Shown in pieces: positions 8,684 through 12,493 of a stretch of DNA of 64,000 nt. The DNA lies in NCBI RefSeq assembly GCF_030813595.1, contig NZ_JAUSUH010000002.1, positions 186,001 through 250,000 of the forward strand, written 5' to 3'. The notes beneath the pieces are model-generated. The model was not told the DNA's origin. It was given only the letters and a program-made list of their open reading frames with translations, and made no database searches. Position 1 is the stretch's first letter. The number at the start of each line of letters is the position of its first letter. The stretch comes from Ancylobacter vacuolatus. Its GTDB lineage: Bacteria > Pseudomonadota > Alphaproteobacteria > Rhizobiales > Xanthobacteraceae. The position numbers were made by a program, and so were the translations under genes.

Positions 8684-9703
8684 TTACCGGAGTGTGGCGA
8701 GGATCTCGCCGGCCAGCGCGTGCACATCGTCGCGGTGGCCGGTGCGGCCGGAGGGCGCGTCCGTGGTGGAGGTCATGACCAGCGAGACGCCGCGTTCGGG
8801 CACCACATAGAGCATCTGCCCGCCATAGCCCCAGCCATAATGGGCGCGCGCCCCGTCGATTTGCCGCGTGAACCAGCCATAGCCATAGGCGTCGCCGGTG
8901 AAGCGCGATTGCGTGCGCGCCTGCCAGCATTGCGCGATCCAGTCCGGCGGGATCACCTGCTCCCCCGCCCGGTTGCGCCCGCCGTTGCGGCAGGTTTCCG
9001 TGAAGGCGAGCAGCGAGGTGGGGCGCATCGCCATCTGGTTGCCGCCGAAATAGATGCCCTGCTTGTCGCGCTCCCAGCTGGCGATTTCAAACCCCTCGAT
9101 CGACCCGAGCCAGTCGCGCGCCAGCGCCAGCGTCGAGCGCCCGCTGGCCCGCGTCAGCAGCGCCGAGACGAGGTGCGAGGAGCCGGTGGAATAGAGCATC
9201 TGCCCGCCCGGCTCGTCGACAAAGGGCCGCGCCAGCGCGGTGCGCACCCAGTTGGGGCTGGCGATCCACGCGCCATAATAGGCGCCGGAGGTGCGCTCCA
9301 GCCCCGCCTGCATGGAGAGCAAATTGCCGAGCGTGATCGCATTAAGGCGCGGGTCGGGGTCCTCGGGCAGGTCGGCCTTCAGCAGCGGCGCGATCTTTTG
9401 GCCCGGGCCTTCCAGCACGCCCTTGTCGATGGCGATGCCGGCCAGCACGGCGAGGATGCTTTTCGAGGCCGATTTGATGTTGGTCGGCCGGTCCACCCGC
9501 CCGCCGTCATAGCCGCGCGCGGCCAGCGTTTCGCCGTCCTTGGCGACAATCACGGTGCGCAGCGGCTCCAGCCCGCCGGCGCGGTCAAGCACGGCGGTCA
9601 GCGCGGGCGGCGCGGAGGATTCGGGCGGGGGCTCAGCCTGCGCGCGCGCGAGGCGCGGGGCGAGCAGAAGCAGCGGAGCGGCAAGCAAGGAACGACGGTG
9701 CAT
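8684..9703 (-). CDS. Exported serine hydrolase, class C beta-lactamase fold
   Basis: A 339-residue protein with a cleavable signal peptide (MHRRSLLAAPLLLLAPRLARAQA). The serine-acylating motif SxxK is S78-A-S-K81 in NIKSASKSILAVL, and LYSTGSSHLVSALL probably supplies the tyrosine of the second motif. The third motif is not a clear KTG; the equivalent stretch is HYGWGYGGQMLYVVPERG. This is the general penicillin-binding-protein-like hydrolase/esterase family (COG1680), most members of which are not antibiotic resistance enzymes. It acts in the periplasm on an unknown ester or peptide. It is transcribed towards, but probably separately from, the transporter operon; 178 bases separate them. Confidence 0.85.
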   Translation of the reverse strand: MHRRSLLAAPLLLLAPRLARAQAEPPPESSAPPALTAVLDRAGGLEPLRTVIVAKDGETLAARGYDGGRVDRPTNIKSASKSILAVLAGIAIDKGVLEGPGQKIAPLLKADLPEDPDPRLNAITLGNLLSMQAGLERTSGAYYGAWIASPNWVRTALARPFVDEPGGQMLYSTGSSHLVSALLTRASGRSTLALARDWLGSIEGFEIASWERDKQGIYFGGNQMAMRPTSLLAFTETCRNGGRNRAGEQVIPPDWIAQCWQARTQSRFTGDAYGYGWFTRQIDGARAHYGWGYGGQMLYVVPERGVSLVMTSTTDAPSGRTGHRDDVHALAGEILATLR

Positions 9704-9884
9704 GCCGGATAATATAGGGCGGGCGCGGGGGACGGGAGGTCACGAAGGGGGGAGGATCGGTCATCCGTCTGAGCTGAGAACAATTGTCGTAGCGCTCTCG
9801 ACAAGAGGTATTTCTAGTACGATGTTTACGTCTGTGTGGCGATGGGGAACGCCAGTACAGCTAGCAGTGGGGCAGAGTGATCTG

Positions 9885-10760
9885 ATGTCGAGAGATTCAA
9901 AGATCGAAGTTTCAGCGATCAATTTGAGAATACCGGAGAGTAAAAATCGTGATTATTCCGGACTTATAAAAACACTTAGCGATCTAAAGCGGGGTGTAAA
10001 GGTATATGGAGATAGCTATGTTGCAATCAATTATTATAATGAACTAAGTAAATGGGGAGTAATATCGAAATATACAGAAATTGATATCGATGGCGAGTGG
10101 TTTAATATAGAAGATTTTTCGGTAGCAACTGTTGATCAAGTTGGTAAAATTGTCATTCCGGATAATTTAAAGCCAAATCTTGCCCAATTTTATTTTATGA
10201 TTGATACCGATTTACATATATTTGTATTTTCATCTTATTCTGAATCAAAGGGACTTAGCGCCCGATCAATGGGTCTATATTTTAAGGAGGCACTTGAGTG
10301 GACTGAGATTACAGATCAATTTGGACGAGTGGAATCTGACATTGTTAAGAGCTACGATCAGGTAGACCGACTCCTCTCTCTCCCAAACATTAAGGAAATT
10401 ACCGTCATTATCAATCGCCCGAACCCAGATGATATAGGAGAATCGCTAGCAACTATTATTGAAAATAGACTTTCCGAACAGAATGCAGACCAATATCAAG
10501 AGACATTGAAGGCAAAAGGACCGAACAGCATAGTGCCAAGCGAGAGAACCAAGGATCTTGCGAAGATTGCTGCAGAAAATGGGACTTATAGACAAAAAAG
10601 TGTTGTTAATGGAGTCCTGAAAAGCGAAGACACAGACAACAGCCCATTATTTGAAGTAAAAAAGTATAAATCTCACGAATCTGAACAGAGAATATTCTTC
10701 TCGCTCGCGAAAAAATTAATTGATAGAGTTCGTGTAGCAAGGGAAAGTTTAAATGCCTAG
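9885..10760 (+). CDS. Probable DUF4747-family protein, first gene of foreign two-gene operon
   Basis: The reading frame is 291 residues from ATG 9885 (MSRDSKIEVSAINLRIPES), preceded by a GGGGCAGA stretch as a weak ribosome site; an ATG at 9822 in the same frame is possible. The first half matches my memory of the DUF4747 family: conserved-looking blocks are VSAINLRI, LKRGVKVYGDSYVAINYY, TEIDIDGEWFN and IPDNLKPNLAQFYFMID. No catalytic motif is recognised. The second half (from about residue 170) is polar and rich in Lys, Glu and Asn. It is cytoplasmic, with no signal or membrane segment. It overlaps the membrane-protein gene by eight bases, so the pair is almost certainly co-translated. Function is unknown; defence against phage or plasmids is one hypothesis from context only. 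Confidence 0.75.
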   Translation: MSRDSKIEVSAINLRIPESKNRDYSGLIKTLSDLKRGVKVYGDSYVAINYYNELSKWGVISKYTEIDIDGEWFNIEDFSVATVDQVGKIVIPDNLKPNLAQFYFMIDTDLHIFVFSSYSESKGLSARSMGLYFKEALEWTEITDQFGRVESDIVKSYDQVDRLLSLPNIKEITVIINRPNPDDIGESLATIIENRLSEQNADQYQETLKAKGPNSIVPSERTKDLAKIAAENGTYRQKSVVNGVLKSEDTDNSPLFEVKKYKSHESEQRIFFSLAKKLIDRVRVARESLNA

Positions 10761-11280
10761 CGACAGGACAGGATTTTTATCAACAATAAAGATTTTATAC
10801 AGAAATTACGGGGGCCTACGGGCTTTCGTTAGCTCAGAATACGTTATTATATCAATAATTTTAACAGTTTTATCTTGGAAAATCGCCACGACTGGACAAT
10901 GGATTGACATAGCTAAGTCTACACTTCCGACATTAACCGGATTTTCGATAGCGGCGTACGCAATATTATTCGCGATATTGGATGAAAAAACGCGGGCCGC
11001 ACTCAGAGTGCCTGAAAAAGAGCTGAAAGACAGATCTCCACTGCTCGTTTTGGCGAGCACAATATCACACGCTGTTGTCGTACAGGTTATTGGAATAATA
11101 TTTGCAATAGTGGCGTCTGGAAAATCGATCCCGAATATAACAGGTAATATCTTTCTACCTCAGATAACAAATACAATTTTGTCATTTATAGGTCTATTTA
11201 TAACATACTATGCAATAATACTGATATTGGCATCAATTCTCGTTATATTTCGAGTCTTGTTTATAATTTCGCGAGTATAA
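10753..11280 (+). CDS. Four-helix membrane protein, second gene of foreign operon
   Basis: A 175-residue integral membrane protein with about four hydrophobic segments: roughly residues 30-43, 57-76, 96-121 and 140-172. Between helices 2 and 3 is a charged cytoplasmic-looking loop, DEKTRAALRVPEKELKDRSP. Distinctive stretches are LPTLTGFSIAAYAILFAILDE and STISHAVVVQVIGIIFAIV. I do not recognise a named family. The ATG lies inside the 3' end of the preceding gene (AAATGCCTAG), giving an eight-base overlap. Small membrane proteins coupled to a cytoplasmic partner are a common effector arrangement in defence and toxin modules, but nothing in the sequence proves that here. Codon use is A/T-rich like its partner. 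Confidence 0.8.
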   Translation: MPSDRTGFLSTIKILYRNYGGLRAFVSSEYVIISIILTVLSWKIATTGQWIDIAKSTLPTLTGFSIAAYAILFAILDEKTRAALRVPEKELKDRSPLLVLASTISHAVVVQVIGIIFAIVASGKSIPNITGNIFLPQITNTILSFIGLFITYYAIILILASILVIFRVLFIISRV

Positions 11281-11308
11281 TAAGTTATCTTACACTGAAT
11301 TCTTGCCC

Positions 11309-12493
11309 TCACCCACCCCCCAGCACCAGATCATCCCGGTGCACCATCGCGGCGCGGCCCTCAAAGCCGGTAATCGTGACGATCTCGTCGGATGAGCGGC
11401 CCTTGAGGCGTTCCGCGTGGTCGTGGTCATAGGCCACCAGCCCGCGCCCGACTTCGGCGCCATCCGGCCCGCGCAAGATCACCGCGTCGCCGCGGCTGAA
11501 ATCGCCTTCCACCCGGGCGACGCCGGCGGGCAGCAGCGAGGAGCCGCGACGCAGGGCGGCCACCGCGCCGGCGTCGAGATGCAGCGTGCCGCGCGGCTCC
11601 AGCGCGCCGGCGATCCAGCGCTTGCGGGAAGCCACCGGGTTGGCGGGAGCGAGAAACCAGGTGCAGCGCGCCCCGGTCTCGATCGCCCGCAGCGGGTTCT
11701 TCACCTTGCCTGACGCGATCACCAGATGCGCGCCGGCGGTGGTGGCGATCTTGGCCGCCTCCACCTTGGTCTTCATGCCGCCGCGCGACAGCTCGGTGCC
11801 GGCGCCCCCCGCCATCGCCTCGATCTCGGCGGTGATGCGCGGCACCACCGGAATGAGGGTGGCGTTGGGGTCCTCGTTCGGCGGGGCGGTGTAGAGGCCG
11901 TCAATATCCGAGAGCAGGATCAGCAGATCGGCGCTGGTCATGCCGGCGACGCGGGCGGCCAGCCGGTCATTGTCGCCATAGCGGATTTCCGAGGTCGCCA
12001 CCGTGTCGTTCTCGTTGATGACGGGGACGACCTTCAACTCCAAAAGCTTGGCGATGGTCGAGCGGGCGTTGAGATAGCGCCGCCGCTCCTCGGTGTCGCC
12101 CAGCGTGATCAGGATCTGCCCGGCCGCCACGCCCTCATGGGCCAGCGCCTCCGACCAGGCCCGCGCCAGCGCGATCTGGCCGACAGCGGCGGCGGCCTGG
12201 CTCTCCTCCAGCTTCAGCGGGCGCTTGGGGAGCTTCAGCACATTACGCCCCAGCGCGATGGCGCCTGACGAGACCACCAGCACTTCCTTGCCCTCGCGGT
12301 GCAGCTGCGCCACATCCTCGGCCAGCGCCGCCAGCCAGGCATGGCGCAGGGCGCCGCGCTGCTGGTCGACCAGCAGCGCCGAGCCGACCTTCACCACCAC
12401 GCGGCGAAAGGCGGACAGCTTCGGCGCGGCGGGAGCGGCGGCGGCTTCGGCGAGGTGGGCGGTGTCGGTGGCGGAATCGGCGGGAACGGTCAT
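11309..12493 (-). CDS. proB: Glutamate 5-kinase
   Basis: ProB phosphorylates glutamate, the first step of proline synthesis, in the cytoplasm. At 394 residues it has the amino-acid-kinase domain ([12 protein letters not shown] at about residue 32; [51 protein letters not shown]) and a C-terminal PUA domain from about residue 285. The N-terminus is extended by about 25 Ala-rich residues relative to E. coli. It lies downstream of obgE on the same strand, separated by about 215 bases with a composite repeat. The arrangement rplU-rpmA-(acetyltransferase)-obgE-proB is standard for Hyphomicrobiales. Confidence 0.97.

Follow-up and report, generated by a model that had tools for sequence, protein, structure and literature searches.

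Introduction

Pairs of a DUF4747 protein and a downstream four-pass membrane protein have been published as RexAB-like prophage defence (PMC6426596, PMC6426606, PMC7542560), and "DUF4747/CarolAnn" is listed as an immune operon in PMC13373217, where 17 out of 443 cases have such an operon behind CapK/CapS. Here, we analyze such a pair, genes A and B, in a stretch of 64,000 nucleotides from Ancylobacter vacuolatus (contig NZ_JAUSUH010000002.1, positions 186,001 to 250,000; hereafter the window, with position 1 as its first letter). An earlier note, made from the letters of this DNA, knew no function for the pairing and considered it a candidate for an undescribed system. Because the pair has already been published as CarolAnn/Sbash/Butters-type defence, neither statement holds. 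The novelty lies in the slot and not in the pair: the module is exchangeable cargo at a chromosomal site that is flanked by proB and a serine hydrolase gene and is, as far as seen, specific to the genus.

In the Sbash, CarolAnn and Butters papers, the link from the cytosolic proteins and lambda RexA to DUF4747 is made through HHpred matches that are weak; that of the Butters protein had 69% probability and E 140 (PMC7542560). CarolAnn gp44, Sbash gp30 and Toast gp42 are described as dimers with non-specific DNA binding (PMC11077077). In P. putida, overexpression of RexA is reported to result in membrane damage by RexB (PMC12894663). Among the strain-specific loci listed in a Salmonella genome paper is a DUF4747 gene with a hypothetical gene after it (PMC11181664).

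The gene pair compared with RexAB-type systems

The pair in the window consists of the following two genes (lengths in amino acids, aa):

9885..10760, + strand: gene A, DUF4747 protein, 291 aa, proposed DNA-binding sensor (PF15931, phrog_10040, AlphaFold2, Foldseek)
10753..11280, + strand: gene B, small membrane protein, 175 aa, proposed membrane effector (phrog_20580, jackknife profile, AlphaFold2)

The two genes overlap by 8 bp. G+C content over the pair is 0.36-0.41 (500-base windows) as compared to 0.63-0.74 within about 4 kb on each side and 0.58-0.77 across the remainder of the window's first 30 kb, and the A+B island is present in a single copy in the host genome. These data confirm the overlapping gene pair on an A+T-rich island described in the earlier note. 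The resemblance of the first gene to DUF4747, which it had proposed, is also borne out: A matches PF15931 in Pfam with E 8.3e-44 (150.4 bits against a cut-off of 27; positions 2-257 of the 257 in the profile) and phrog_10040 with E 4e-48, and has no match in PADLOC. The best AlphaFold2 model of A (predicted local distance difference test, pLDDT, 78.9; predicted template modelling score, pTM, 0.73) displays the split two-domain fold of RexA and RdgC, and Foldseek ranked lambda RexA (8twq) first with E 4.7e-9 and RdgC (2owl) next with 5.2e-5. Thus, A is likely a protein with a predicted RexA/RdgC-like fold. In this way, the DUF4747 Pfam family is tied to the RexA/RdgC fold via a predicted structure; the links in the cited papers are weak HHpred matches.

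For B, Pfam gives nothing at E<=1, and the only PADLOC match is at E 0.018. The protein matches the prokaryotic-virus family phrog_20580 (E 2.2e-18), and a jackknife profile built from 10 relatives recognizes it with E 9.2e-37. The absence of a recognized family, as originally stated for B, therefore holds for Pfam, while the match to phrog_20580 had been missed. AlphaFold2 predicts a helical bundle (pLDDT 76.4). In a simple hydropathy scan, B of the window has five hydrophobic segments, the last two of which lie within one long helix of the model; across 11 members of the B family, four segments were found in seven, five in two (B of the window included) and three in two. The description of B as a four-helix membrane protein is, therefore, correct, with the five segments scanned in the window protein itself as a caveat. 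Within the third helix, T103, H106 and Q111 of B do not vary among five aligned relatives. Taken together, the bundle model and the hydropathy scan identify B as a four-pass type of membrane partner, and the proposed architecture of a cytosolic protein with a membrane protein stands.

As in CarolAnn (gp44/gp43) and Sbash (gp30/gp31), the gene for a cytosolic protein is followed by that for a small four-pass membrane protein, and the genes overlap. Phage-borne occurrence and a link to DUF4747, made by HHpred in the papers, are further common features. By contrast, the window module is chromosomal cargo of an alphaproteobacterium. Moreover, A has 291 aa as compared to 370-372 aa for the CarolAnn and Sbash cytosolic proteins, and it matches PF15931 strongly, while hmmscan at E<=1 gave no match to this family for the proteins of CarolAnn and Butters. 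With lambda RexA/RexB, the pair shares the order of A then B, the predicted fold of A, for which RexA is the best match in the PDB, and the membrane partner; the order cI-rexA-rexB is matched by repressor-A-B in two phage-type relatives (L018 and L100). Unlike lambda rexAB, the window copy has no repressor alongside, and B is longer than lambda RexB (175 versus 144 aa). The window proteins match neither RexA PF15969 nor RexB PF15968 in Pfam at E<=1; because the CarolAnn and Butters proteins match none of PF15969, PF15968 and DUF4747 at the same threshold by hmmscan, this comparison tests the lambda subfamily only. With hhalign, no signal was obtained for DUF4747 against RexA, CarolAnn or Butters, or for RexA against CarolAnn; since some of the 35 control proteins scored as high, the test is powerless and counts neither way. 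When B was compared to RexB, gp31 and gp43, the model of the 165-aa Sbash protein ranked 6 with a probability of 0.54 and E 0.66, and hhalign, powerless also in this case, gave no match. Neither a Kiwa model in PADLOC nor DUF4868 in Pfam, which we take to define Kiwa (KwaA/KwaB), was matched at E<=1. Finally, the P. putida RexAB system (PP_5643/PP_5644), which we liken to the pair by description, is also proteobacterial and combines a RexA-fold protein with a four-helix membrane protein; for this system, membrane damage is shown experimentally (PMC12894663), while the window pair is known from sequence and models.

A hypervariable slot flanked by proB and a serine hydrolase gene

The pair lies in an insert with the following borders and neighbors:

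9756..11306, no strand: A+T-rich insert occupying the hypervariable slot; the pair is here in 0 of 29 other genomes of the genus
8684..9703, - strand: left flank, conserved serine-hydrolase/beta-lactamase-like gene, 339 aa, named by eye; adjoins the slot in 25 of 29 genomes
9738..9754, - strand: motif GGTCACGAAGGGGGGAG, left junction; most of 24 relatives have it conserved, as judged by eye
11309..12493, - strand: right flank, proB (glutamate 5-kinase), named by eye; present in all 29 other genomes of the genus at 82-95% nucleotide identity

proB with its surroundings was found in all 30 genomes of the genus, and the 4-7 kb beyond proB were examined for the 29 genomes other than that of the window. 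The serine hydrolase gene is next to proB in 25 of these. Elsewhere, an apparent ABC transporter with native G+C lies beyond proB (G021 and G023), proB and a solute-binding protein gene are about 0.3 kb apart without an insert (G018), or none of the flank genes is present within 7 kb (G029). In all 25 loci that keep both flanks, the interval is filled with 949-1969 bp of G+C 0.38-0.56 (lengths are measured between tblastn hits and some take in the start of the hydrolase gene), and in all 25, the cargo differs from that of the window. Thus, different cargo is found between the same two core genes, as in described hotspots. Using a hidden Markov model, DUF4747 was found to be absent from the other slots of the genus; the copy of G020 lies elsewhere.

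On the right, homology to the window resumes at 11302-11324 in 29 of 29 loci; by eye, the junction lies about 0-20 bp past the proB stop codon. On the left, homology ends at 9704-9757 in those 13 short loci that extend to the left flank and at 9704-9760 in 24 longer regions. Motif GGTCACGAAGGGGGGAG probably represents the outer edge of the serine-hydrolase promoter. Between the junctions, no repeats were found.

To describe the cargos, 36 open reading frames (ORFs) with a length of 110 aa or more in these 25 loci were grouped by blastp at E 1e-3, leaving out the window pair. Three groups recur (L067/L069, L068/L081 and L076/L083/L084), and the 26 slots, window included, hold 22 cargo types. 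Because two further pairs of loci share a Pfam domain (DUF2971 in L063/L073; DUF5343 in L086 and, below cut-off, in L088), the number of families is nearer 20 than 22. Cargo is common to 5 of 325 genome pairs and to none of the 11 pairs in which proB is at least 94% identical. In the pairs that share cargo, the cargo is no more alike than the flanks (69% versus 91% for L067/L069); therefore, no recent exchange was caught. As a control at the level of the family, proB was matched in 78 of 80 genomes, 75 of which are outside the genus. Of these 75 other-genus loci, the 27 best matches were examined, and all 27 have native G+C after proB (0.63-0.73 over 1.5 kb) and lack the hydrolase gene there. 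Thus, the slot is, as far as seen, genus-specific.

Cargos of the slot

The cargo types include GmrSD/HEPN, PD-Lambda-5, TIR, OLD-like ATPase, PIN, Panacea and unknowns, based on Pfam scans of 30 of the 36 ORFs and PADLOC scans of 20 ORFs from 19 loci. Matches were obtained to PD-Lambda-5 (L082, 8.6e-74), NsnA/PD-T4-2 with a HEPN partner (L071, 2.5e-52), an NsnB/AriA/OLD-like ATPase (L067, best 9.8e-29) and a CAP12-type TIR protein (L075, 1.2e-17). Other loci carry PDC-S31/DUF2971 (L063), DUF2971 (L073), PDC-M34A with Hypoth_Ymh (L088), PIN_8 (L068 and L081), Panacea (L083), DUF433/MerR with DUF5615 (L074) and DUF5343 (L086), and L065 gave a weak SIR2 match (4.1e-4). The suspected link to known defence families is thus found in the other occupants of the slot, several of which belong to such families. 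No Pfam or PADLOC family was assigned to the cargo of L064, L066, L072, L077, L078, L079, L080 and L085 (the second ORFs of L064, L066 and L077 were partly scanned), and a sub-threshold coiled-coil match was all that the Pfam scan, the one scan applied, gave for L070. We consider these family-less cargos candidates for new defence genes. No integrase, transposase or recombinase was recognized among the 30 scanned ORFs; because 15 of these had no Pfam match at all, a recombinase of an unknown kind may be among them.

PADLOC matched seven of the 20 cargo ORFs as compared to, at 1e-3, no more than 10 among 43 proteins native to the window, the latter through the models mad2, mad3, mad8, AriA, an ATPase-Toprim model and C3a186. 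This is no clear excess and, therefore, the case for a slot of defence character is made by the kind of full-length hits and not by counts. Among the native proteins, two match mad3 (best 1.3e-32), two mad8 and one mad2; these matches are probably generic resemblance, although a MADS-like gene may be among them. The PIN_8 proteins of L068 and L081 (about 410 aa) are 45% identical while proB of the two species is 86% identical, which suggests separate arrivals of the same family.

Relatives of the pair and their contexts

PF15931 was detected in seven of 398 genomes of the phylum and phrog_20580 in seven; these are the same seven genomes, and the two genes are adjacent with A first. The weakest B among them is that of G515 (E 4.9e-4). 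Thus, as in RexAB, the putative sensor gene lies upstream of the membrane gene and the two always occur together in this set. In a second set of 274 genomes of the class of G756, A and B were each found once, both in G756, which is already in the set of 398, so that the second set gives no additional positive. A is present in two of 61 relatives (the genome of the window and G020) and in two of 385 genomes of the class (that of the window and G235). After merging of entries judged to be duplicates (L008 with an A. lwoffii plasmid, the same protein by eye; viral contig L099 with G756, identical), 12 distinct A loci remain: the window, G020, G235/Niveispirillum plasmid, the A. lwoffii plasmid, an A. 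pittii plasmid, G756, G634, G739, G504, G520, G515 and viral contig L100. In all 12, a B-family gene is directly downstream of A. In jackknife tests, in which each of 11 proteins was compared to a profile of the other ten (L100 was aligned only), E ranged from 9e-10 to 2.2e-82 for A and from 9.6e-6 to 7.4e-52 for B. A and B are a real two-gene unit. Orphan homologues of RexA are reported from elsewhere (PMC11077077).

The relatives are found in prophages, viral contigs and plasmids. In G020 (Xanthobacteraceae bacterium 501b), the pair adjoins a terminase gene and a gene for a protein matching a tape-measure family below cut-off. Other pairs lie with a Mu portal gene and an integrase core below cut-off (L017), with Mu transposase domains (L020), about 9 kb from a phage integrase gene (L021) or directly downstream of a gene for an SNF2-type helicase (L022). 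In L018 (285-2602), a Phage_CI_repr/S24 repressor gene is followed by A and B, all on the same strand, and a transposase-like ORF has no Pfam match; in viral contig L100 (701-3571), the order is an S24/HTH repressor gene, one ORF of 160 aa, and then A and B. On small Acinetobacter plasmids, the pair adjoins genes annotated RelE/NadS or BrnT/BrnA, and L019 is a lone A+T-rich insert. RexAB-type modules are thereby documented in alphaproteobacteria, Mu-like prophages, plasmids and a chromosomal slot. The earlier note had proposed a foreign two-gene module on mobile-looking DNA and reasoned that a lack of co-occurrence, or native housekeeping contexts of homologues, would speak against it; in our data, the genes co-occur and their contexts are mobile.

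In G020, proB is 95% identical to that of the window. Its own DUF4747 pair (L006, 9670-11153) is diverged, with A about 30% identical, and lies beside phage genes elsewhere in the chromosome, while the slot of this genome holds a DUF2971 gene.

Discussion

Based on the data reported here, we consider it likely that the pair is a RexAB-type two-gene abortive-infection module. Defence, which had been proposed from architecture, is supported as the predicted function by association and predicted fold. In our model, A would be a cytosolic RexA/RdgC-fold protein, probably a dimer clamping DNA, that detects either the DNA of a phage or its replication/recombination complex, and B would be a membrane effector translationally coupled to A. 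Upon infection, A would be activated and B switched on; as a result, B would permeabilize the inner membrane and growth would stop before progeny are made. The gene anatomy, the co-occurrence, the fold of A, the bundle of B, the contexts of the relatives and the slot with its defence-type cargos are the observations on which this model builds. We infer DNA binding, the trigger, the action of A on B, membrane leakage and phage exclusion because lambda RexAB, CarolAnn/Sbash and P. putida RexAB serve as analogues.

The main warning against this model comes from Butters, in which the cytosolic protein alone protects: gp30 on its own is reported to block PurpleHaze and Alma, an effect that gp31 weakens (PMC7542560). 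By analogy, A alone could be antiviral by binding phage DNA or replication complexes, with B anchoring or restraining A and forming no pore. The stronger recognition of A than of B in the jackknife tests (9e-10 to 2e-82 versus 1e-5 to 7e-52) fits this mode, A also being the longer protein. However, both genes are reported to be needed in CarolAnn and Sbash, overexpression of RexA in P. putida leads to damage of the membrane by RexB (PMC12894663), and Butters gp30 itself has no Pfam DUF4747 match at E<=1. We, therefore, regard a Butters-like mode as unlikely.

Considerably less probable still are two readings in which defence is not the primary function. The pair could be a leftover of lysogeny control, i.e. 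prophage genes for tuning the lysis-lysogeny decision that were left behind in the chromosome and no longer have a function; in lambda, RexA reportedly biases the switch in a RexB-independent manner (PMC11077077), and two relatives (L018 and L100) lie behind CI-type repressors. However, both reading frames are intact, none of the adjoining native genes is, by eye, a phage gene, the other slot cargos do not resemble lysogeny genes, and related pairs on small plasmids adjoin toxin-antitoxin genes. Alternatively, two coupled genes with one membrane partner could form an addiction-type (toxin-antitoxin) module, which is maintained because cells are killed upon its loss and for which defence would be no more than a side effect, and toxin-antitoxin-like cargos (Panacea, and DUF433 with DUF5615) do exist in the slot. 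Addiction should slow turnover, while the turnover of the slot is fast, with no cargo in common among the 11 pairs of genomes with the most similar proB; moreover, neither A nor B has a credible match to a toxin-antitoxin family (B against TIGR02293, E 0.025, 14 bits versus a cut-off of 57). We consider this the least probable of the readings.

In hotspots without mobile elements, exchange is described to occur by homologous recombination in the flanking core genes, and defence functions are over-represented (PMC5635113). Like these hotspots, the slot has a high turnover between fixed core genes and no recognized integrase. It differs from them in being small, usually with one or two genes, and in being filled in all 25 loci as well as in the window. 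Small foreign modules probably replace one another in the slot via homologous recombination in the flanks. We speculate, as a possibility that we would not yet call probable, that the slot is a dedicated, always-filled defence-cassette position of the genus, which extends from the proB stop codon to the hydrolase promoter, holds a single small immune module at a time and exchanges it between species by flank recombination without a mobility gene of its own. If so, L064, L066, L070, L072, L077, L078, L079, L080 and L085 would represent a ready list of new anti-phage systems. The slot provides one fixed address, readable in most species of the genus, for finding defence genes; in 26 genomes, it yields 22 alternative cargo types, several of them in known defence families and about nine family-less.
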